A DNA stretch of 64,000 bases from Burkholderiales bacterium (lineage in GTDB: Bacteria > Pseudomonadota > Gammaproteobacteria > Burkholderiales > Casimicrobiaceae): the NCBI GenBank assembly GCA_905339295.1, contig CAJPFI010000017.1:62001-126000 (forward strand), given 5' to 3'. Below are positions 10,526 through 63,366 of this stretch, in pieces. The stretch's first letter is position 1. Each line of letters opens with the position of its first letter. The notes under the pieces are model-generated. The model did not search any database. It was not told the origin of the DNA and saw nothing but the letters and a program-made list of their open reading frames with translations. The translations under genes and the position numbers were made by a program.

Positions 10526-10694
10526 GTGGCGAAAGCGATCGCAACGCTGGCGCGCGCGGCCGGGGCAGGGGCCGATGAGGCATCGAGACACCTCCGGGAG
10601 TCGATGCCGGGCCCTCCGGCACCCCGGGCATCTCGACGTCGGGCCGCGCGCGCATCCCGGCCGCGATATTGCACTCGCCAAATTCCATGTTAGT

Positions 10695-10712
10695 CTGCCA
10701 ACATTCTGGCAG
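10695..10712. promoter_or_regulatory. Short perfect dyad upstream of the phosphate-compound cassette
   Basis: CTGCCA (10695-10700) and TGGCAG (10707-10712) form a perfect 6-bp dyad with a 6-nt centre. It lies in a locally AT-rich stretch 42 bp before the first gene of the TIM-barrel/G1PDH/DeoR set. A weak TTGCAC at 10669 could be a -35 but no good -10 accompanies it. An operator for the DeoR-type regulator encoded in the same cassette is one possibility; no matching dyad was found at the second promoter region near 13700. Confidence 0.25.
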
Positions 10713-10753: not shown

Positions 10754-11440
10754 GTGGACTTCATCTTCATGCTGACCCGCCAGGATCGCACGATCGACGA
10801 CGCCGAAGATGTCATTGATTCGGTGAGCGATCTTGGCGTCCGCCACATCGGTTTCAAGGATGTCGGCGTGCCGCGCGCAACGCTCGAGCGCGTCGTCGAG
10901 CGCATCCGCGCACGCCGGGGCGTCTGTTACCTGGAAGTGGTAAGTACAACACCCGAGGCGGTCAGCGCGTCGCTCGCCGCCGGCGCCGCGCTGGGCGTCG
11001 ACTGCATCCTGGGCGGCACCGACCTCGACACCGCGAGGCGCGTGCTCGGCACCTGCGCCGGCTATTTCCCGTTTCCCGGCCGCCCGGCCGGCCATCCCAC
11101 CCGGCTGGACGGCACGCCGGGCGAGGTCGAGCGCGACGCGCGGCGCGCGCGCGAGTGCGGTTGCGGCGGCGTCGACCTGCTCGCGTACCGCGCCACCGAG
11201 GCCGATCCGCTCGCGCTCGTGCGTGCGGCGAGGCGCGGCGTCGGCGACGGCCGCCTGATCGTCGCGGGCAGCGTCCATTCGACCGAGCAGATCCACGCGC
11301 TCGCGGCCGCCGGTGCCGATGCATTCACGATCGGCTCCGCGGTGTTCGACGGGACGTTCTCGCCGACGAAGGGCTCGCTGCGCGGCCAGATCCTGGCCGT
11401 TCTCGACGCCTGCGACAGCGCGCCGGCGATGGCGGGATGA
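10754..11440 (+). CDS. Phosphate-binding TIM-barrel protein of unknown specificity
   Basis: 228 residues from a GTG preceded by GGAG at suitable distance; the upstream in-frame extension is Arg/Pro-rich and unlikely. The C-terminal strand-loop LIVAGSVHSTEQIHALAAAG followed by GADAFTIGSAVFDG is the standard phosphate-binding motif of HisA/HisF/PcrB/NanE-type (beta/alpha)8 barrels. ILGGTDLD and HIGFKDVG lie on earlier strands. I cannot assign a reaction. Its stop overlaps the ATG of the next gene (ATGA), so it is co-translated with the glycerol-1-phosphate-dehydrogenase-like enzyme and should act on the same phosphorylated substrate or product. Some barrels of this class (PcrB) use glycerol-1-phosphate, but the PcrB active-site pattern is not evident. 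Confidence 0.7.
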   Translation: MDFIFMLTRQDRTIDDAEDVIDSVSDLGVRHIGFKDVGVPRATLERVVERIRARRGVCYLEVVSTTPEAVSASLAAGAALGVDCILGGTDLDTARRVLGTCAGYFPFPGRPAGHPTRLDGTPGEVERDARRARECGCGGVDLLAYRATEADPLALVRAARRGVGDGRLIVAGSVHSTEQIHALAAAGADAFTIGSAVFDGTFSPTKGSLRGQILAVLDACDSAPAMAG

Positions 11441-12807
11441 ACGGCGATGCCGATCCGCGCGTCGCGCGCCGCGGCCCGCGCGCGACGGCCGCGATGACGC
11501 GTGACCCGGGCCGGCGCGATCCGATCGCCGCGCTGCTCGCCGGCGAGTGGGTCGATCCGGACAGCGGCCGCACCTCCGGCGTCGAGATCGCGGCGATCGC
11601 GATCGAGCGCAGCCTGCGCGGACAGGAGGCCGATCTCGTCGCCTCGCTCGCCCTCGGTCCCCGCCTCGCCGTGGTGAGCGACGCGGTCACCCACGAGGTG
11701 CTCGGCGCGCGCATCGAGCGCGTGCTCGCGCCGCTCGCGCGGGTCGACCCGGTCGTGCTGCCGCGCGATCCGCACGCCGACCTGGCGACCGTCGAGGCGG
11801 TGCGCACCCGGAGCGCGCATGCCGACGCGCTGATCGCGGTCGGCTCGGGCACGATCAACGACCTGGCCAAGTACGCCGCGGCGCGCGACGGCAAGCCGTA
11901 CGCGGTGTTCGCGACCGCGCCGTCGATGAACGGGTACACGTCGGCCAACGCCGCGATCACCGTCGACGGCCACAAGAAGACGCTGCCGGCCACGCTCGCG
12001 CGCGGCGTGTTCGTCGATCTCGCGGTGCTTGCCGCGTCGCCGCCGCGCATGATCCGGGCCGGACTGGGCGACTCGCTGTGTCGCCCGACGGCGCAGGTCG
12101 ACTGGCTGCTGTCGCACCACCTGCTCGGCACCGGCTACCGCACCGCGCCGTTCGCGCTGCTCGAGGACGACGAGCCCGCGCTGCTCGATGCGCCCGAGGC
12201 GCTCCTCGACCGCGACCTCGACGCGATGCGCGCGCTCGCGCGCACGCTGGTGCTGTCGGGACTCGGCATGACGCTGTGCGGCGGCAGCCATCCGGCGAGC
12301 CAGGGCGAGCACCTGATCAGCCATTACCTCGACATGCGCGCGCCGGCGGGCGGCCCCGCGAACCTGCACGGCGAGCAGGTCGCGGTGGCCACGATGACGA
12401 TGGCGAGGATCCAGGAGACGATGCTCGACGCGCCGGCGCCGGTGTTCCGCGCATCGACCGTCGACGCGCGCGCTCTCGAGGATCACTTCGGCCGCGAAGT
12501 CGGTGCCGCGTGCTGGCGGGATTTCGCGCCGAAGCGGCTCGACGCCGCGGGCGCGGCCGCGCTGTCCGAGCGGGCGGCGTCCACGTGGGAGGCGATGCGC
12601 CGCGGCGCGGAGGCGGTCCGGCTGCCCGCGGATCGACTCGCGTCGGTGATGCGGCGCGCCGGCGGCCCGGTCACCCCGGCCGACCTCGGCGTCGACGCCG
12701 TGACCTGGGCGGGCGCCGTGCGCCACGCGCGCTTCCTGCGCGACCGGTACACGTTCCTCGACCTCGCCGACGACGCCGGCATGCTGTCGCCGCGCCTGCT
12801 CGCGTGA
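11437..12807 (+). CDS. sn-glycerol-1-phosphate dehydrogenase-like (AraM/EgsA, iron-type ADH superfamily)
   Basis: 456 residues from the coupled ATG at 11437; an in-frame ATG at 11494 is the alternative. The NAD-binding motif GSGTINDLAKYAA is near residue 142. Metal ligands expected for the family are visible: Asp in GLGDSLCRPTAQVDW (about 212), His in GGSHPASQGEHLISH (about 285-291), and His in LHGEQVAVATM (about 311). These match the G1P-dehydrogenase branch rather than ordinary glycerol dehydrogenases. Enzymes of this family interconvert dihydroxyacetone phosphate and sn-glycerol-1-phosphate with NAD(P)H. In a bacterium without archaeal lipids, a catabolic direction is plausible. The Lys commonly seen after GD in this family is Arg here (CRPT), which could affect specificity. 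Confidence 0.78.
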   Translation: MNGDADPRVARRGPRATAAMTRDPGRRDPIAALLAGEWVDPDSGRTSGVEIAAIAIERSLRGQEADLVASLALGPRLAVVSDAVTHEVLGARIERVLAPLARVDPVVLPRDPHADLATVEAVRTRSAHADALIAVGSGTINDLAKYAAARDGKPYAVFATAPSMNGYTSANAAITVDGHKKTLPATLARGVFVDLAVLAASPPRMIRAGLGDSLCRPTAQVDWLLSHHLLGTGYRTAPFALLEDDEPALLDAPEALLDRDLDAMRALARTLVLSGLGMTLCGGSHPASQGEHLISHYLDMRAPAGGPANLHGEQVAVATMTMARIQETMLDAPAPVFRASTVDARALEDHFGREVGAACWRDFAPKRLDAAGAAALSERAASTWEAMRRGAEAVRLPADRLASVMRRAGGPVTPADLGVDAVTWAGAVRHARFLRDRYTFLDLADDAGMLSPRLLA

Positions 12808-12861
12808 CGTCGCGGCGGCCGCTGCCGCTATGATGGGCGCCCCGGTCCGTCACCCCACGCC

Positions 12862-13659
12862 ATGTCGAAACCCGCGGCTCCCCCGCACGCCCGCCTCCCG
12901 CAGCGGGAGCGTCACGCCCAGATCCTCGCGATGCTGCGCCGGGACGGCATCGTGCGCATCGCCACGCTCGCGACGACGTTCGGGGTCACGACCGAGACCG
13001 CGCGCCGCGACCTCGACGAGCTCGCGGAGAGCGGTGCGCTGCAGCGCACCTACGGCGGCGGCGCGAGCCAGTCGCTCATCGACGAGCCCGGCATCGGGCT
13101 GCGCGGCCTCGTCCACGCCCCGGAGCGCCAGCGGATCGCGGCCGCAGCGGCGCTGCTGGTCGAGCCCGGCGATGCGCTGATGATCGACGCCGGCTCGACG
13201 ACGAGCCTGTTCGCCTCCGCGCTCGCGGTGCGCAACCTGCACCTGACGGTCGTGACGAACTGCCTGCCGGTCGCGACCGCGCTGGGCGCCGGCGAGCGAT
13301 GCCGCGTCATCCTGTGCCCGGGCGACTACGTCCCGCGCGAGGCCGGCGTCTTCGGCACCGAGACCGCGGCGTTCCTGCGCCGCTTCCAGGCCAACAAGGC
13401 CTTCGTCGGCGCGGGGGGCGTGACGGCCAACGGCCTGACCGACGCCGATTCGTCCGCCTGCGCAGTCAAGCGCACGATGCTGGAGCGCGCCGACCGGTCG
13501 ATCCTGCTCGTCGACAGCTCCAAGTTCGACGTGGTCCAGTTCGAGCGCATCGCCGCGCTCGCCGATCTCGACGACCTGATCACCGAGGTCGCGCCGCCGC
13601 GCCGGCTCGGCGCCGCGCTGAAGGGCGCCGGCGTCGCGGTCAGGCTCGCGCCGCGCTAG
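12862..13659 (+). CDS. DeoR/GlpR-family transcriptional regulator
   Basis: 265 residues. An N-terminal DeoR-type helix-turn-helix (RHAQILAMLRRDGIVRIATLA ... TTETARRDLDEL, about 13-65) is followed by the DeoR sensor domain with the phosphate-sugar-binding IDAGSTTSLF (about 110) and ILLVDSSKFD near the end. Such proteins are repressors released by a phosphorylated metabolite of the pathway they control. Its position between the dehydrogenase (54 bp upstream) and the ABC transporter genes suggests it controls both, with a phosphorylated intermediate of this cassette as effector (inference). Confidence 0.9.
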   Translation: MSKPAAPPHARLPQRERHAQILAMLRRDGIVRIATLATTFGVTTETARRDLDELAESGALQRTYGGGASQSLIDEPGIGLRGLVHAPERQRIAAAAALLVEPGDALMIDAGSTTSLFASALAVRNLHLTVVTNCLPVATALGAGERCRVILCPGDYVPREAGVFGTETAAFLRRFQANKAFVGAGGVTANGLTDADSSACAVKRTMLERADRSILLVDSSKFDVVQFERIAALADLDDLITEVAPPRRLGAALKGAGVAVRLAPR

Positions 13660-13673
13660 CGCGGAACCTCCGA

Positions 13674-13753
13674 CGGATGTGGGGGTTACAACGTCCGCCG
13701 GCCCCCTCCCCGCTCGGACTGCCGCCGCGGCGTGTTGGGGAGTACCACATCCG
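13674..13753. repeat. Spaced 9-bp inverted repeat in the transporter promoter region
   Basis: CGGATGTGG (13674-13682) and its exact complement CCACATCCG (13745-13753) flank a 62-bp spacer between the DeoR gene and the substrate-binding-protein gene. Spaced half-sites of this kind can support looping by a tetrameric repressor. No biochemical support; a chance match in a GC-rich region cannot be excluded. Confidence 0.3.
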
Positions 13754-13756
13754 GCA

Positions 13757-13785
13757 TTGTGATCCCCATTTCCGCGTGTTATCGT
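13757..13785 (+). promoter_or_regulatory. Candidate sigma-70 promoter for the ABC transporter operon
   Basis: TTGTGA (13757-13762), 17-bp spacer, TATCGT (13780-13785), about 90 bp upstream of the substrate-binding-protein start. Each hexamer matches consensus at four of six positions. The inverted repeat at 13674/13745 ends directly upstream of the -35. Confidence 0.3.
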
Positions 13786-13875
13786 CGCCGCGCGAGGCCG
13801 CGGTTTCCCCCGCCTCGGATACGCCCGCGCGTCAGCCGATCCGCGGGTTTCCGGCAACTCGAGGAGCACACGGTC

Positions 13876-14892
13876 ATGACGAAACGGAACGCGGGATGGA
13901 GGCTCTTGTGCGCGGTTGCGTTGCTGCTGTCCTGCACCGCCGCCCGCGCGGGCGAGATCACGGTGTACACGGCGCTCGAGGAAGACGACGCGCGCGTCTA
14001 CCTCGCCTCGTTCGCCAAGGCGAAGCCCGACATCAAGGTCAACCTGCTTCGGCTGTCGACCGGGGACCTGGTGGCGAGGATCCTCGCGGAGAAGGCCAAT
14101 CCGCGGCACGACGTCGTCTGGGGCACCGCGCTGACCCAGCTGAACGATCCGCGCCTCCTCGAGATGGCCGAGCCCTACAGGCCGGCCGGCATCGATTCGG
14201 TCAAGTCGGCGTTCAAGGATCCCGCGAACCGCTGGTTCGCGACGACCGGGTACTTCGCCGGCTTCTGCGTCAACACCGAGGAGCTCAGGAAGCGCAACCT
14301 GCCGATGCCGACGTCGTGGCAGGACCTTCTCAATCCGGTGTACAAGGGCCAGATCGTCATGCCCAACGCGGCGAGCTCGGGCACGGGCTACCTGCAGATC
14401 GTGAGCCTGCTGCAGATGAAGGGCGAGGAGAAGGGCTGGCAGTTCCTGAAGGACCTCGACCGGAACATGGCGCAGTACATCAAGTCGGGCTCGCGCCCGT
14501 GCAAGATGGCCGCCACCGGCGAGTACGCGATCGGCCTCTCGTTCGCGTTCTCCGGGGTCAAGCAGATCATGGAGGGCTACCCGATCAAGCTCGTGATCCC
14601 TTCCGAGGGCGCGGGCTACGAGATCGAGGTGAGCATGCTGATGAAGTCGTCGAGGAACAAGGCGGACGCGAAGCAGTTCCTCGACTGGCTGCTCACGCTC
14701 GACGCGGCGAAGCTCTACGGCGAACGCTCCGAGATGTCCTCGGTGCCCGGCGCGAAGCCGACCGAGGCGGTGCTGAAGGCCGGACTGCCCGCGGACGTGT
14801 CGACGGTCCTGTTCAAACAGATGGATTTCGAGGCGTCGGCGAAGAACAAGGACCGCATCGTTGCCGAGTGGAAGCAGAAGATCGAGCGCTGA
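13876..14892 (+). CDS. ABC transporter periplasmic substrate-binding protein (2-aminoethylphosphonate/iron class)
   Basis: 338 residues from an ATG preceded by GAGGAGCAC. A signal peptide (LLCAVALLLSCTAARA, about 1-25) leads into a type II periplasmic binding fold starting GEITVYTALEEDDARVYL, typical of the Fe3+/putrescine/phosphonate class. Members with this start and with FATTGYFAGFCVNTEE are usually annotated as putative 2-aminoethylphosphonate binders; relatives of the same class also bind hexose phosphates. No phosphonate-degrading gene (phnW, phnX, phnA) is nearby, and the cassette instead holds a glycerol-1-phosphate-dehydrogenase-like enzyme, so a phosphate ester ligand is a fair alternative. 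Confidence 0.82.
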   Translation: MTKRNAGWRLLCAVALLLSCTAARAGEITVYTALEEDDARVYLASFAKAKPDIKVNLLRLSTGDLVARILAEKANPRHDVVWGTALTQLNDPRLLEMAEPYRPAGIDSVKSAFKDPANRWFATTGYFAGFCVNTEELRKRNLPMPTSWQDLLNPVYKGQIVMPNAASSGTGYLQIVSLLQMKGEEKGWQFLKDLDRNMAQYIKSGSRPCKMAATGEYAIGLSFAFSGVKQIMEGYPIKLVIPSEGAGYEIEVSMLMKSSRNKADAKQFLDWLLTLDAAKLYGERSEMSSVPGAKPTEAVLKAGLPADVSTVLFKQMDFEASAKNKDRIVAEWKQKIER

Positions 14893-14995
14893 TCGAGCGG
14901 GCCGGCGGGCGCCCCCGCGTCCGCCGGGCTTCCCGGGCAAGCGCGCCTGGGCGTCGCCGCGGCGCCTGACGCGGCGACTTCCGCGGGGCTGAACG

Positions 14996-15979
14996 ATGTA
15001 CCTGTCGCTTCGCGGCATCACGAAGTCGTTCGACGGCGTCAAGGCGCTCGCCGGCGTGAGCCTCGACATCGAGGAGGGCGAGTTCGTCTGCTTCCTCGGC
15101 CCCTCCGGCTGCGGCAAGACGACGCTCCTGCGGATCATCGCCGGACTGGAGACGCCCGACGCCGCGGAGATACGGTTCGCCGGCCGCGATCTCACCGACA
15201 TCCCGGCGCGCGAGCGCAACTTCGGGATCGTCTTCCAGTCCTATTCGCTGTTTCCGAACATGACCGTGGCGCGCAACATCGCGTACGGGCTCGAGTGCCG
15301 AAAGTGGCGCCGCGAGGACATCCCGGGCCGCGTCATCTCGATGCTGGCGCTCGTGAACCTCTCCGATCAGGCCGCGAAGTTCCCGCACCAGCTTTCCGGC
15401 GGCCAGCAGCAGCGCGTGGCGCTCGCCCGCGCGCTCGCGCCCAGGCCCGCCGTGCTCCTGCTCGACGAGCCGCTCTCGGCCCTCGACGCCAAGGTGCGCG
15501 AGGACCTGCGCGCCGAGATCAAGGACCTGCAGTCGCGGCTGCGGATCACGACGATCATGGTCACGCACGACCAGCACGAGGCGATGGAGGTCGCCGACCG
15601 CATCGTCGTGATGGACCGCGGCAGGATCGAGCAGATCGGCCGCCCGGTGGAGCTCTACGAACGCCCGGCGAACCGGTTCGTCGCCGGCTTTCTGGGACGC
15701 ATGAACCTCGTCCGCGACGTCCACGGCCATGCGCTCGCCGGCATCCGGCCCGAGCACGTCGAGCTCTGCGCCGGAAGCGAAGCCCCGCACGAGCGGCGAA
15801 CCGGCCGCGTCTCGCGCAGCGTGTTCCTCGGAAGCATCACGCGCGTCACGCTCAGCGTCGACGGGCAGGACCTGACGCTCGAGGTGCAGGGCAGGCGCGA
15901 CGACCTCGCGCCGGGCGCCGAGATCGCCGTCCGCATCCCGGCGCGCGCGCTCGTGCGGCTCGACGACGGGCTGCCATGA
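14996..15979 (+). CDS. ABC transporter ATP-binding protein (FbpC/PhnT class)
   Basis: 327 residues. Walker A GPSGCGKTT (about 38-46), signature LSGGQQQRVALARAL (about 134), Walker B VLLLDEPLSALD, switch His in VMVTHDQ-like MVTHDQHEAM. A C-terminal TOBE-like domain (from about 235) resembles that of iron and phosphonate importers. It powers the importer formed with the binding protein upstream (104 bp gap) and the permease downstream (ATGA overlap). Confidence 0.92.
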   Translation: MYLSLRGITKSFDGVKALAGVSLDIEEGEFVCFLGPSGCGKTTLLRIIAGLETPDAAEIRFAGRDLTDIPARERNFGIVFQSYSLFPNMTVARNIAYGLECRKWRREDIPGRVISMLALVNLSDQAAKFPHQLSGGQQQRVALARALAPRPAVLLLDEPLSALDAKVREDLRAEIKDLQSRLRITTIMVTHDQHEAMEVADRIVVMDRGRIEQIGRPVELYERPANRFVAGFLGRMNLVRDVHGHALAGIRPEHVELCAGSEAPHERRTGRVSRSVFLGSITRVTLSVDGQDLTLEVQGRRDDLAPGAEIAVRIPARALVRLDDGLP

Positions 15980-17667
15980 CCGCTACCGTCCCGGCCCGGC
16001 CTTCGCCGGCGCCGGCCCGCGGGTTCGACACCGACCGGCTCGCCGTCTGGGGGCTGGCCGCCGCGGTGGTCGTGCCGCTCCTGCTGTTCGTCGCGCTGCC
16101 GCTGTTCGCGATCCTGCGGACGTCGTTCATCACCCCGGAGGGCGACATCGGGCTCGCGAACTACGCGCGCGAGTTCGCGAGCCCGAAGTTCTCGCGCATC
16201 GTCGCGAACAGCTTCGCCGTCTCGCTGACGACGACGGCGATCACCGTCGTGATGGCGTACCTGTTCGCCTACGCGCTCAAGCGCACCGCCATGCCGTTCA
16301 AGCGGACCTGCGGCGCCATCGCCCTGCTGCCGCTGTACGCGCCGTCGCTCGTGCAGGCGCTCGGCATCCTGTTCCTGTTCGGCCGCAACGGCATCGTGAA
16401 CCGGACGTTCGACCTCGATATCGACATCTACGGGTTCTGGGGCATCGTCATCGCCGACGTCCTCTACAGCTTCCCGCACGCGTTCCTTATCCTGTCGGCG
16501 GCGCTGGCGGTCGGCGACGCGCGCCTCTACGAGTCGGCGAGGATGCTCGGCGCCGGCTCCGCGCGGATCTTCCGCACGATCACGCTGCCGTCGACGCGAT
16601 TCGGGATCCTGTCGGCGATCTTCGTCGTCTTCACGATCGTCATCACCGACTTCGGCAACCCGATGGTGATCGGCGCCGACTACACGGTGCTCGCGACCGA
16701 GATCTACAATCAGGTGTCCGGGCAGGGGCGAATGGAGCTCGGCGCGGTGATCGGCGTCGTCCTGCTCGTACCGGCGGCGATCGCGGTGATCGTCGAGCGA
16801 ATGATCATGCGCGGCAACCAGGCGTCGATCACCGACGGCTCGCAGCCGCTCTCGATCGGCCGCAATGCGCGGCGCGACAGGGTCGCGCTCGCGTACGCGG
16901 CGGTCGTTTGCCTGGCCATCGCGTCGATCGTCGCGATCGTGTTCGTCGCGAGCTTCGTCACGCTGTGGCCCTACAACATGCACCTTTCGTTCCGCCACTA
17001 CCGCTTCGAGGTGCAGAACGGCATCGCGCCGCTGTGGACCAGCGTCGTCGTGTCGCTGATGGCCGCGGTCGTCGGCGTCGTCGCGACCGTGTCGGCGGCC
17101 TGCGTGTCGCGCTGGCTGAAGCCGCTGCACGCCCAGGCGCTCTACTTCATGTCCGTCCTGCCGGCGGCCGTGCCGGGCATGGTTCTGGGGCTCGGCTACA
17201 TCCTCGTGTTCAACGATCCGGCCAATCCGCTCGAGTTCCTGTACGGCACGCTCGCGATCCTGGCGATCTGCAACGTCTATCACTACCACGCGCAGGGCTA
17301 CCTGATCGCGAGCACGAGCGTCGGTCAGGTGAGCCGCGTGTTCGACGAGACCTCGACCTGTCTCGGCGCGGGCATGCTGCGGACGCTGCGCTCGGTGATC
17401 CTGCCGATCGTGGCGCCTTCGATCGCCAGCATCGCGGTGTTCTACTTCGTGCGCAGCATGGTCACGCTGTCGGCGGTCATCTTCCTGGTGACGCCGGCAA
17501 CGCAGCTCGCCGCGGTCTCGGTGCTGCTGCTCGACGACTCCGGCAACCAGAACCAGGCGGCCGCGTTCTCGGTGTGCATCATGCTGATCGTCGCGGCGGC
17601 GCTGGGACTGTTCCACGGGCTGGCAGGACTGCGCGCTCGCCGCCGGGCGCAACGACCGGCAGGCTGA
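15976..17667 (+). CDS. ABC transporter permease, fused double-domain type (FbpB/PhnU class)
   Basis: 563 residues from an ATG overlapping the stop of the ATPase gene. About 12 membrane segments are arranged as two homologous halves. Each half has a binding-protein-dependent-transport EAA-like loop: ESARMLGAGSARIFRTITLP in the first, and the FDETSTCLGAGMLRTLRSVILP region in the second. A single fused permease is normal for iron and 2-aminoethylphosphonate importers of this class, so no second permease gene is expected. It closes the cassette; the next gene begins 160 bp further on. Confidence 0.9.
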   Translation: MTATVPARPSPAPARGFDTDRLAVWGLAAAVVVPLLLFVALPLFAILRTSFITPEGDIGLANYAREFASPKFSRIVANSFAVSLTTTAITVVMAYLFAYALKRTAMPFKRTCGAIALLPLYAPSLVQALGILFLFGRNGIVNRTFDLDIDIYGFWGIVIADVLYSFPHAFLILSAALAVGDARLYESARMLGAGSARIFRTITLPSTRFGILSAIFVVFTIVITDFGNPMVIGADYTVLATEIYNQVSGQGRMELGAVIGVVLLVPAAIAVIVERMIMRGNQASITDGSQPLSIGRNARRDRVALAYAAVVCLAIASIVAIVFVASFVTLWPYNMHLSFRHYRFEVQNGIAPLWTSVVVSLMAAVVGVVATVSAACVSRWLKPLHAQALYFMSVLPAAVPGMVLGLGYILVFNDPANPLEFLYGTLAILAICNVYHYHAQGYLIASTSVGQVSRVFDETSTCLGAGMLRTLRSVILPIVAPSIASIAVFYFVRSMVTLSAVIFLVTPATQLAAVSVLLLDDSGNQNQAAAFSVCIMLIVAAALGLFHGLAGLRARRRAQRPAG

Positions 17668-19656: not shown

Positions 19657-22233
<2,577 letters not shown>

Positions 22234-23337
22234 TCAGATGCGCATCGGCATCACGACGTACTTGAAGTCGTCGCGGCCGGGCATCGTGACGAGCGCGCTC
22301 GAGTTCGCGTCGCCGAACGCGATGGCGACCTCGGCGCTGTCGATGTTCTGAAGCACGCCGAGCAGGTAGGTGATGTTGAAGCCGATGTCGAGCCCCTCGC
22401 CCTTGTAGTCGACCTCGAGCTCCTCTTCGGCTTCCTCCTGCTCGCTGTTCGAGCAGATGATCCGCAGCTGGTCCGCGGCCAGCACCAGGCGCACGCCGCG
22501 GAACTTCTCGTTCGACAGGATCGCCGCGCGCTGAAGCGCCGAGAGAAGGACGTTGCGGTCCAGCGTGACCGACTTGGTATGCCCGACCGGAATGACGCGG
22601 TTGTAGTCGGGGAACTTGCCGTCGACGACCTTCGAGACCAGTTCCACGTTCGCGAACCGGAAGCGCACCTGGTTCGCGAGGATGTCGATCGACACCGGAT
22701 CGTCGCCGTCGGTGAGGAGCTTCCCGAGTTCGAGGACCGTCTTGCGAGGCAGGATCACGTCCTGCCGCGTGTAGTCACCGTCGACCGCCAGGCTCGCCCA
22801 CGACAGCCGATGACCGTCGGTCGCGACGGCCTGCAGCGACCCGCGGTCGATGACCAGCAGCATCCCGTTGAGGTAGTAGCGGATGTCCTGCTGCGCCATC
22901 GCGAACTCGACCAGCCGGAACAGCGCCCTCAGGTCCTTCTGCGGCAGCGACAGCGACTGCAGCTTCTCCTGGCCCAGGCTGATGCGCGGGTAGTCGCCGG
23001 CGGCAAGCGTCTGCAGGTTGAAGCGTGAACGGCCGGCCTTCACCGTCATCCGGTTTCCCGTCACCTCGACGTTGAGCGCGGCGTCGTCGGGAAGCGCGCG
23101 CAGCAGGTCCTGGAGCTTGCGCGCCGACACCGTGGTCGGCGCACCGTTCTTCGCCTGGCACTCGGCGAGCGCCGTGATCTGCATCTCGAGATCGGTCGCC
23201 GTGAGTTCCAGCGCGCCGTCCTTCGGCTGGATCAGCACGTTCGCGAGGATCGGCAGCGTGTGGCGGCGCTCGACGATGCCCGATACGGCCTGAAGGGGCT
23301 TCAGCAGCGCGTCGCGTGCGATCTGTTTGAGTTGCAT
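22234..23337 (-). CDS. dnaN: DNA polymerase III beta sliding clamp
   Basis: 367 residues from the ATG at 23337 (an in-frame TTG two codons upstream is less likely). MQLKQIARDALLKPL, RRHTLPILANVLI and the C-terminal VMPMRI tail are typical of the clamp. It forms the ring that tethers polymerase III to DNA. It lies between dnaA and gyrB on the minus strand and is probably transcribed both from dnaA and from its own promoter at 23511-23539. Confidence 0.97.
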   Translation of the reverse strand: MQLKQIARDALLKPLQAVSGIVERRHTLPILANVLIQPKDGALELTATDLEMQITALAECQAKNGAPTTVSARKLQDLLRALPDDAALNVEVTGNRMTVKAGRSRFNLQTLAAGDYPRISLGQEKLQSLSLPQKDLRALFRLVEFAMAQQDIRYYLNGMLLVIDRGSLQAVATDGHRLSWASLAVDGDYTRQDVILPRKTVLELGKLLTDGDDPVSIDILANQVRFRFANVELVSKVVDGKFPDYNRVIPVGHTKSVTLDRNVLLSALQRAAILSNEKFRGVRLVLAADQLRIICSNSEQEEAEEELEVDYKGEGLDIGFNITYLLGVLQNIDSAEVAIAFGDANSSALVTMPGRDDFKYVVMPMRI

Positions 23338-23500
23338 TGTCAAAGACCAAGACTGGTTAATAGGAGACGTCCCCGCACCGGGAAAAGGCCGCTTTTCTTC
23401 GACGGGTCAGCAGGTTGGCGACGGTATCCCGGGTCGGAGAAGCGCGGGATCGTCGGTGGATCTTTTGGGGACGGTCCGGCAAACCTGAGAAAATGCCATT

Positions 23501-23539
23501 TAATCCACAAATTATAAGCCAAAACCCCCCTGCCTTCCA
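23501..23539 (-). promoter_or_regulatory. Candidate dnaN promoter with adjacent DnaA-box-like site
   Basis: On the minus strand a perfect TATAAT lies at 23516-23511, 17 bp after TGGAAG (23539-23534). Just downstream, plus-strand TAATCCACA (23501-23509) differs from the DnaA box TTATCCACA at one base. The surrounding 23490-23525 is the most AT-rich stretch of the dnaA-dnaN gap (23338-23589) and could also be the unwinding region of a bipartite origin. Nothing else is seen in this gap. Confidence 0.5.
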
Positions 23540-23589
23540 GCGGCCCGGCGCCCCCAAAACTATCGTGCCGTCCCAGCCTCGGCGCCGGA

Positions 23590-25002
23590 TCAGCTGCGAA
23601 GCACCTGGAGCAGGAAATTGACGTCGTGGTTGAGGTCGGGAAGGGTCTCCCGCAGCTTGGCGATCTGCCGGCACGCGTGCAGCACCGTCGTGTGGTCGCG
23701 GCCGCCGAAGTTGCTGCCGATCTCGGGCAGCGAGAGCTGCGTCAGCTCCTTGGCGAGCGCCATCGCCACCTGGCGCGGCCGGGCGATCGCGCGCGATCGC
23801 TTCTTCGAATGCATCTCCGAGGGCCGGATCTTGTAGTAGTCGGCCACGGTCTTCTGGATGTTCTCGACCGAGATCTGGCGGTTCTGGACCGCCAGCAGGT
23901 CGCGCAGCGCCTCCTTGGCGACGGTGAGGGTGATCTCCTGCGCGTGGAAGTTGGCGTAGGCGACGATGCGCTTGAGCGCGCCCTCGAGCTCGCGGACGTT
24001 GCTGCGGATGTGCTTGGCGACGAAGAACGCCACCTGCTCGTCCAGCCGCACGCGCGACTGCTGCGCCTTGGCGAGCAGGATCGCCACGCGCATCTCGAGC
24101 TCGGGCGGCTCGAGCGCCACCGTGAGGCCCCAGCCGAAACGGGAGATCAGGCGCTCCTCGATGCCGGCGATCTCCTTCGGGTAGGTGTCGCAGGTGATGA
24201 CCACCTGCTTGTGGCCCTCGATCAGCGTGTTGAACAGGTAGAAGAATTCCTCCTGCGTGCGGCTCTTGCCGCCGAAGAACTGGATATCGTCGATCAGGAG
24301 CAGGTCGAGCGAGCGGTAGTAGCGCTTGAACTCGTCGAACGCCTTGTGCTGGTAGGCGCGGACGACGTCGGACACATAGGTCTCCGCGTGGATGTAGCGG
24401 ATCTTTGCCGACGGCTCGCGCTTCAGGATGTCGTGGCCGATCGCCTGGATCAGGTGCGTCTTGCCGAGGCCCACGCCACCGTAGACGAACAGCGGGTTGT
24501 AGGAAGTCGGGTGCTCGGCGACCTGCAGCCCCGCCGCGCGGGCGAGTTGGTTGGCCTTGCCGGTCACGAAGGACGCGAACGTGAACGTGCCGTTGAGGCT
24601 TGTGGGCTCGATCCGGCGCGGCAGGAACGCGGCGGGTCGTGCGGGCTCGCGGGGCGCGGCTTCAGGGGCCTCCGGTGCCCGTTCGTCGTCGATCGGAGGG
24701 GGAAACGGGGAAGCGGGGGCGTCGATGGACGCGGCTGTCGCGCCAGCCGGCTCGGCCAGCGCGTACTCGATGGCGAGCGGCGCGCCGGCCGCCTCGCGCG
24801 CCAGCGTCGCGATGCGCGTGCCGAATCGGTCCTTGACCCACTGCAGGACGAAGCGGTTGGGTGCCCGGAGCCTGAGCGATCCCTCTCCGGGCTCGACGGC
24901 GAGCGGCCGGATCCAGGTCGCGAACTGCTGGGGCGTGAGTTCCCTCTCGAAGACGGACAGGCAGGCCGTCCACGCGGCGGGCGTCGGGGTGGATGCTGAC
25001 AT
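23590..25002 (-). CDS. dnaA: Chromosomal replication initiator DnaA
   Basis: 470 residues from the ATG at 25002 (family start [19 protein letters not shown]); upstream in-frame codons are not conserved. Domain I (about 1-90), a Pro/Ala-rich linker (about 95-150), the AAA+ domain with Walker [11 protein letters not shown] and Walker [11 protein letters not shown], and the C-terminal helix-turn-helix with [15 protein letters not shown]. It binds DnaA boxes and opens the origin. The two consensus boxes at 25123 and 25153 lie within its own predicted promoter, so autoregulation is likely. Confidence 0.97.
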
Positions 25003-25076
25003 CGTGCTGGGGGCGAGATCGCCGGCCGTTCTTGTGTGCCTGGGCTTCCCCGGAGGCGGCCTTGCGGACAAAACGG

Positions 25077-25120
25077 ACGGGCGCCCCGCCGGAAGCATCG
25101 ACCTCGGGCGGGGCGCCCGT
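25077..25120 (-). repeat. 14-bp perfect inverted repeat in the dnaA leader
   Basis: ACGGGCGCCCCGCC (25077-25090) pairs exactly with GGCGGGGCGCCCGT (25107-25120) around a 16-nt loop. If dnaA is transcribed from the promoter at 25131-25159, the hairpin lies in the 5' leader of dnaA mRNA. No U-run follows in either direction, so an intrinsic terminator is unlikely; a structural or protein-binding role is possible. Confidence 0.55.

Positions 25121-60998: not shown

Positions 60999-63366
<2,368 letters not shown>

Follow-up and report, generated by a model that had tools for sequence, protein, structure and literature searches.

Bacterial uptake of sn-glycerol-1-phosphate (G1P) has been published for two binding proteins, GpxB and UgpB; in the accessible part of that report the systems are ABC importers that take up glycerol phosphate and have been proposed to salvage lipid backbones, and the UgpB of Phaeobacter binds G1P as well as glycerol-3-phosphate (G3P) (PMC12718374). 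Here we report a six-gene cassette that combines an importer of another class with a G1P dehydrogenase (G1PDH)-like enzyme, a TIM-barrel protein and a DeoR-type regulator. It lies in a 64,000-nucleotide stretch of DNA (hereafter the window; positions 62,001 to 126,000 of contig CAJPFI010000017.1, GenBank assembly GCA_905339295.1) from a Burkholderiales bacterium of the family Casimicrobiaceae. We propose, with a probability of roughly 0.6, that it is a DeoR-controlled nutrient cassette which imports and oxidises a small polyol phosphate monoester.

The two published systems belong to other transporter families. GpxB is of the PhnD type (3.A.1.9) and UgpB of the CUT1 type, whereas the binding protein of the window is of the SBP_bac_6/AfuA-PhnS2 type and works with a fused permease; its Pfam matches at E ≤ 0.001 were confined to SBP_bac_6, SBP_bac_1 and SBP_bac_11, with no PhnD-type match at that threshold. 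Furthermore, the accessible part of the GpxB report describes no catabolic dehydrogenase or TIM barrel as part of that system (PMC12718374). Since G1P uptake has already been published for the unrelated GpxB and UgpB, its novelty here is lowered, and the newest part of the cassette is the TIM-barrel/dehydrogenase pair. Topic searches of titles and abstract openings found nothing joining a TIM barrel, a dehydrogenase and an importer of these kinds. Each component also has described counterparts: PhnS2-T2-U2, AfuABC (hexose phosphate) and P5PAB (pyridoxal phosphate) for the importer, the last two sharing its fold class and most of its phosphate-contact residues but differing in their ligands; EgsA/AraM for the dehydrogenase; and GGGP synthase/PcrB, a phosphate-binding barrel that uses G1P, for the TIM-barrel protein.

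All six genes are present on the plus strand between positions 10754 and 17667, as a preliminary description of this DNA had stated. A phosphate-type TIM-barrel enzyme with a GTG start (10754..11440) is followed by the dehydrogenase (11437..12807), a regulator (12862..13659) and, after a gap of 216 bp, a periplasmic binding protein (13876..14892), the importer ATPase (14996..15979) and a permease of two fused halves (15976..17667). The regulator belongs to the DeoR/GlpR family, with HTH_DeoR at 58.3 bits and DeoRC at 154.3 bits, both above cut-off. The preliminary description had placed ATGA overlaps inside each half of the cassette; the overlap of the ATPase and permease genes is clear, but that of the TIM-barrel and dehydrogenase genes exists only with the dehydrogenase start at 11437, because an alternative in-frame ATG, closer to the start of the conserved part, lies at 11494.

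The set is conserved across genomes beyond chance, as judged by the kind of neighbourhood check that the preliminary description had suggested. Identical order of all six genes was found in four loci (L034, in which the permease ends at the contig end, L037, L038 and L039), and the order of the window recurs in a Rhodospirillales metagenome-assembled genome (L060). The genes are rearranged in L070, where the importer is divergent, and in L065, where a kinase, a HAD protein and a class II aldolase accompany them. Several other loci give partial views: L033, L035 and L040 end at contig ends, L036 has no binding protein and only a small part of the ATPase, and in L063 the binding protein and the beginning of an ATPase lie ∼8.6 kb from the TIM-barrel gene. 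The best-conserved member is the binding protein, with 80-88% identity to its counterparts within the family. The distribution of the TIM-barrel gene is patchy and accessory: at an identity of at least 63% it was found in nine of 60 relatives, some of whose assemblies are incomplete (seven of 21 in the genus, two of 15 from the family's other genera and none of 24 in the rest of the order).

The importer was recognised in the preliminary description as a complete system of the phosphonate class, and model matches confirmed the binding protein (SBP_bac_6), the ATPase (ABC_tran and TOBE_2) and the fused permease (BPD_transp_1 in two stretches). The nearest solved relatives of the binding protein are 8x1a, AfuA (4r72) and P5PA (6wce). 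Ligand contacts of AfuA and P5PA, taken from the accessible parts of their descriptions (PMC4546632 and PMC8427247), were mapped onto the sequence, and the phosphate contacts are retained at T62 (in place of Ser37), G63, S168-G169-T170 and G205, the exception being Thr60 of AfuA, which is Ala85. In a 26-row importer tree, from which L055, L056 and L058 (24-26% identity) were omitted, ten cassette-type binding proteins, including those of L041 and L063, form one clade (95/99), and seven aminoethylphosphonate (AEP)-type proteins form another (100/100).

Nine further importer relatives were considered, five of them selected plasmid loci (from 40 of 602 records) and four from genome searches. Seven of the nine adjoin DeoR and a HAD/HisN-type phosphatase or a homologue of ethanolamine-phosphate phospho-lyase, and the other two, L147 and L148, gave no match to phosphatase or DeoR references. 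Because of these phosphatase and phospho-lyase neighbours, the evidence points to an importer family that serves head-group-sized phosphate esters, one branch of which would probably handle phosphoethanolamine, the head group of phosphatidylethanolamine. At 14 compared positions the pocket of the window differs from relatives tied to phosphoethanolamine at three. With the phosphate pocket largely kept and such neighbours beside its relatives, the importer is likely to carry a phosphate ester, as the preliminary description had supposed. Two of the relatives, L128 (4232-9633) and L137 (7321-13315), adjoin phospho-lyase homologues (6tor, E = 9.6e-102 and 2.4e-105) and probably take up and break down phosphoethanolamine; in L127 (2730-10672) an importer of the same class stands beside a HisN-type phosphatase and the ethanolamine ammonia-lyase EutBC.

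The dehydrogenase was correctly described as a G1PDH-like enzyme with the metal ligands of its family: it matches Fe-ADH_2 at 110.3 bits against a cut-off of 28, and keeps Asp212, His292 and His311, which we take to be those ligands. It shares both fold family and metal ligands with EgsA/AraM but differs in having a TIM-barrel partner, a low score against the EgsA model and a different signature. The Asp of the SxDG motif, which appears to define the EgsA/AraM family, is Asn165 in the window, and position 216 is Arg. Both residues occur in 49 of 55 aligned rows (L054 having been dropped as a copy of L038), and the six outgroup rows have Asp, together with Lys in four and Asn or Met in the others. 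A quick tree had long outgroup branches and gave weak support (17) for the TIM-linked group. On the alignment the enzyme represents a distinct Asn165/Arg216 subfamily, and its substrate cannot be read from EgsA/AraM.

The TIM-barrel protein has no Pfam match at E ≤ 0.001. Its AlphaFold2 model is a confident barrel (pLDDT 92.7), and the best 50 Foldseek structures include pyruvate kinase (rank 1), ribulose-phosphate epimerase (RPE), TrpA, HisA, OMP decarboxylase and PcrB, with TM scores to the query of 0.56-0.66; judged by the model, it is not close to any of them. An identity as GGGP synthase was considered and rejected, since the TIGR01768 score (GGGP synthase/PcrB) is 21.9 bits against a cut-off of 113.25, the weak match is confined to residues 149-199, and PcrB (4nae, with bound G1P, rank 33) is structurally no closer than RPE, TrpA or HisA. 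Residues K35-D36, E61, D141 and R146, all at strand ends, are invariant over 56 rows; together with a GS/G phosphate site they suggest that the enzyme carries out acid-base chemistry and that its substrate is a phosphorylated carbonyl compound. L064 and L102 were left out of alignment A2 because the matched stretch crosses a stop.

The preliminary description rightly noted this protein but gave it little weight, although it is paired with a dehydrogenase in half of the loci examined. A collection scan seeded with the TIM barrel confirmed at least 535 relatives, of which the best 80 were kept; five contigs (L047, L048, L049, L050 and L054, belonging to L033, L036, L035, L039 and L038, respectively) were counted once for conservation, yet are among the 80. 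In 40 of these 80 loci, which is not a census, the TIM-barrel gene has a G1PDH-like gene no more than 5.5 kb away; 39 of these pairs share a strand, and in 32 the distance is at most 150 bp. The 40 loci come from Alpha- (23), Beta- (7) and Gammaproteobacteria (1), unclassed Pseudomonadota (2) and Myxococcota (7), and have nearby genes for DeoR (25), FGGY kinase (18), HAD-IIB-type phosphatase (15) and class II aldolase (6).

The TIM barrel also has other partners. Of the 40 loci lacking a G1PDH-like gene, 12, all from Streptomyces, carry a DUF1537 kinase and PdxA, a combination found in none of the 40 loci with the dehydrogenase; in these Streptomyces loci, as in L079 (7776-10651), the TIM-barrel gene lies directly downstream of the kinase and PdxA genes, with no G1PDH-like gene within 5.5 kb. 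The same trio occurs on plasmids of Aminobacter, Gemmobacter and Roseateles. Dihydroxyacetone phosphate (DHAP) is the expected product of the DUF1537-kinase/PdxA route, and it would be parsimonious to suppose that the substrate of the TIM barrel is DHAP, or a related 1-phospho-2-ketose, as the product common to the entry routes. Three further contexts were seen: in an Aminobacter locus (L026, 6995-8035) a cupin domain and the TIM barrel share a single reading frame, in Gluconobacter (L025) a separate cupin gene follows it, and a distant relative (28% identity) on a Staphylococcus warneri plasmid (L045, 6992-7654) stands beside a YqeG-type HAD phosphatase.

Joint regulation of the two halves is suggested by a repeated motif. 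An 18 bp inverted repeat, ATGTT-N8-AACAT (10687..10704, plus strand), precedes the TIM-barrel/dehydrogenase unit and is a candidate DeoR operator; a less perfect, related copy (13677..13694, plus strand) lies in the gap between the regulator and binding-protein genes. Of ten loci from the genus and family, the window included, eight keep the upstream repeat, which begins 67 bp before the TIM-barrel gene in the window and 40-62 bp before it in L033, L034 and L036-L040; in L035 and L041 it is degenerate. L060 and L082 have it too before the TIM-barrel gene, and L077 nearly so. A matrix built from ten relatives, the window excluded, was run on both strands of the window and scored 29.1 bits at the TIM-barrel promoter, the best place, 15.7 bits in the gap and 8.5 bits at the next unrelated place; none of 63749 places outside the two sites reached 15.7 bits. 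The top score in 20 Markov-shuffled versions of the window was 10.2 bits on average and once as high as 18.5, so a score of 15.7 is not decisive by itself and its location counts. When each of seven loci was left out in turn, the gap ranked first among places other than the TIM-barrel promoter in the window, L039 and L060, and came second in L037 and sixth in L038. From the conservation of the repeats we infer that DeoR binds both, as a single switch for the two units.

Taken together, these parts make up the following proposed pathway. The ABC importer would take up a small polyol phosphate monoester, roughly as large as a phospholipid head group, as its pocket and clade suggest. The G1PDH-like enzyme, to judge from its family and metal ligands, would use NAD(P)+ to oxidise the carbon adjoining the phosphate-bearing carbon, giving a keto-phosphate (DHAP or a longer 1-phospho-2-ketose), which the TIM barrel, acting as an isomerase, epimerase or aldolase, may make available to central metabolism. 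DeoR would bind the repeats before both units and be released by a phosphorylated intermediate.

A number of observations weigh against this proposal. In one assembly (G009, 96% complete and 9% contaminated) the locus L041 keeps the importer, DeoR and the TIM-barrel gene while the dehydrogenase is missing, and the assembly yielded no dehydrogenase match at E ≤ 1e-10, from which it follows that the oxidation step is not indispensable. Eight loci have the TIM-barrel/dehydrogenase pair, with gaps of 4-31 bp, and no match to importer or kinase references nearby (seven from Myxococcota, L061, L066, L074, L076, L085, L102 and L119, and the unclassed L095), four of these contigs being shorter than 7 kb. 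The exact repeat was not found before the TIM-barrel gene of L063, L065 or L070, and the leave-one-out matrix recovered no motif before the binding-protein gene in L034 and L041. The dehydrogenase scores 162.2 bits against the EgsA equivalog PRK00843, whose cut-off is 413, and five aligned PDB sequences, two of them near-identical, all have Asp at the position of Asn165. Finally, a UgpB above cut-off is encoded in the genome of the window.

As to the cargo, G1P is the likeliest single substrate, although we hold this tentatively, and erythritol-, threitol- or pentitol-phosphates are together about as likely. G1P fits the size of the pocket and the family of the dehydrogenase. Under the strict form of this explanation, which we likewise regard as doubtful, a G1P importer and a true G1P dehydrogenase would deliver DHAP, on which the TIM barrel acts. 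This agrees with membership of the G1PDH family and retention of all three metal ligands, with a pocket suited to a small phosphate ester and so near that of the phosphoethanolamine-tied relatives, and with the DHAP also expected from DUF1537 kinase and PdxA, the partners of the TIM barrel in other loci. However, G1P as substrate is opposed by the Asn165/Arg216 signature, where Asp and Lys or Asn would be expected, by the sub-cut-off EgsA score, and by the presence of UgpB in the same genome. Beyond DHAP, moreover, G1P needs no further dedicated enzyme, and the FGGY kinase in 18 of the 40 paired loci indicates polyols phosphorylated within the cell, the kinase of L063 being nearest to xylulokinase and glycerol kinase. 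That the ester is G1P, one of the cargoes which the preliminary description had suggested, is not established.

That description had also named archaeal lipid debris as an example of a source. Archaeal lipids do carry G1P; nothing was found in the present analysis that points to them. According to the accessible part of one report, sn-Gro-1-P is also present in phosphatidylglycerol and in lipoteichoic acid (PMC7086022). It forms the head group of the former and the unit of the latter, and if the cargo is G1P, either of these bacterial compounds could be its source no less than archaeal lipid.

The second explanation, tentative to a similar degree, is that a C4-C5 polyol phosphate (erythritol, threitol or pentitol) is imported already phosphorylated, and that kinase-bearing relatives import the free polyol. 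It draws on the same FGGY kinases and on the HAD-IIB-type phosphatases and class II aldolases near the paired loci, the single aldolase examined (L065) being of the fuculose/ribulose-1-phosphate kind. It is also consistent with four alphaproteobacterial plasmid relatives of the dehydrogenase (L028-L031) which have the Asn/Arg signature and an FGGY-type kinase nearby in every case, with HAD-IIB, GlpD-like and sugar-importer genes listed in three of the four. In contrast, the pocket differs little from those of the phosphoethanolamine-tied relatives, whose ligand is smaller, and the distribution of the kinase gives little help: FGGY is found in one of five PhnS2-type loci against 17 of the 35 others (missing in four of five against 18 of 35), which is not significant (Fisher p = 0.36, 0.056 and 0.36 at three flank limits). 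The idea that the kinase is missing from PhnS2-type loci because their cargo arrives phosphorylated was accordingly rejected. Nor can a polyol be named from the sister importers, because the binding proteins of L077 and L063 gave only distant matches to sugar/trehalose/sorbitol and polyamine types.

A more far-reaching version of the G1P explanation is possible though rather speculative. The cassette might represent a third, unrelated class of G1P importer joined to the entire intracellular route for G1P, made up of the Asn/Arg dehydrogenase and a new family of phosphate-binding TIM-barrel enzymes, which would also serve an acid-sugar route through DUF1537 kinase and PdxA; its nutrients would be head groups from bacterial phosphatidylglycerol and lipoteichoic acid, in parallel with the sister importers for phosphoethanolamine.

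That the importer handles AEP or another phosphonate and merely stands beside unrelated enzymes is improbable. The best NCBIfam models of all three subunits are indeed putative AEP importer models, but all score below the equivalog cut-offs: TIGR03261 (binding protein) at 361.8 of 392.75 bits, TIGR03265 (ATPase) at 416.1 of 457.7 and TIGR03262 (permease) at 550.4 of 593.25. The cassette shares with PhnS2-T2-U2 its subunit make-up and fused permease, and its binding protein is 40-43% identical to seven members; it differs in that DeoR and enzymes, not phn genes, accompany the importer, none of the six genes or scanned flanking genes being phosphonate-cleaving, and its importer is conserved together with the TIM-barrel/dehydrogenase pair. 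All seven AEP-type rows have Asp at position 60, whereas the 19 others, the window included, have Leu. Trp126 and Asp249 occur in six and five of the seven, respectively, yet L131, a clear AEP locus with neighbours annotated phnW, phnA and phnY, has the Tyr126 and Glu249 of the window; these two positions fail to separate ligands, and the residue case against AEP rests on Asp60. Homologues of PhnW, PhnA and PhnY adjoin the importer in L131 and L135; among the remaining AEP-type rows there is a PhnW homologue in L138, a weak PhnY match in L141 and none of the three in L139, L140 and L142. L135 (contig 10, 1-16000) belongs to the genome of the window itself, where this paralogue (41% identity) is likely to serve an aminoethylphosphonate/phosphonoacetate route. 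An AEP cargo was set aside on these model cut-offs, neighbours and pocket residues, in line with the preliminary description, and the importer is probably of the PhnS2-T2-U2 class without being for plain AEP. A hexose-phosphate importer like AfuABC, an explanation favoured by the place of AfuA among the three closest solved structures, is less probable still and was set aside, since only one of three AfuA sugar contacts is kept (His205, Asp206 and Glu229 are Phe225, Ser226 and Glu249) and, according to the accessible part of the AfuA report, alanine mutants of His205 and Asp206 abolish binding (PMC4546632).

The cassette is flanked by glycosyltransferase genes, and contig 17, to which the window belongs, is part of a 4.03 Mb assembly that is 98% complete. 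A minus-strand open reading frame (ORF) which we take to resemble GyrB, followed by ORFs of presumably dnaN and dnaA size (19657-25098), suggests a possible location of the cassette close to the chromosome origin.

On a practical level, annotation could be corrected in two respects: relatives of the importer are listed merely as substrate-binding proteins, and related dehydrogenases are labelled sn-glycerol-1-phosphate dehydrogenases despite their different signature. More generally, the TIM-barrel/dehydrogenase pair, found in Alpha-, Beta- and Gammaproteobacteria (the last with one locus) and in Myxococcota, marks a metabolic step open to direct assay, and the importer clade points to a possible means of phospholipid head-group uptake in bacteria.

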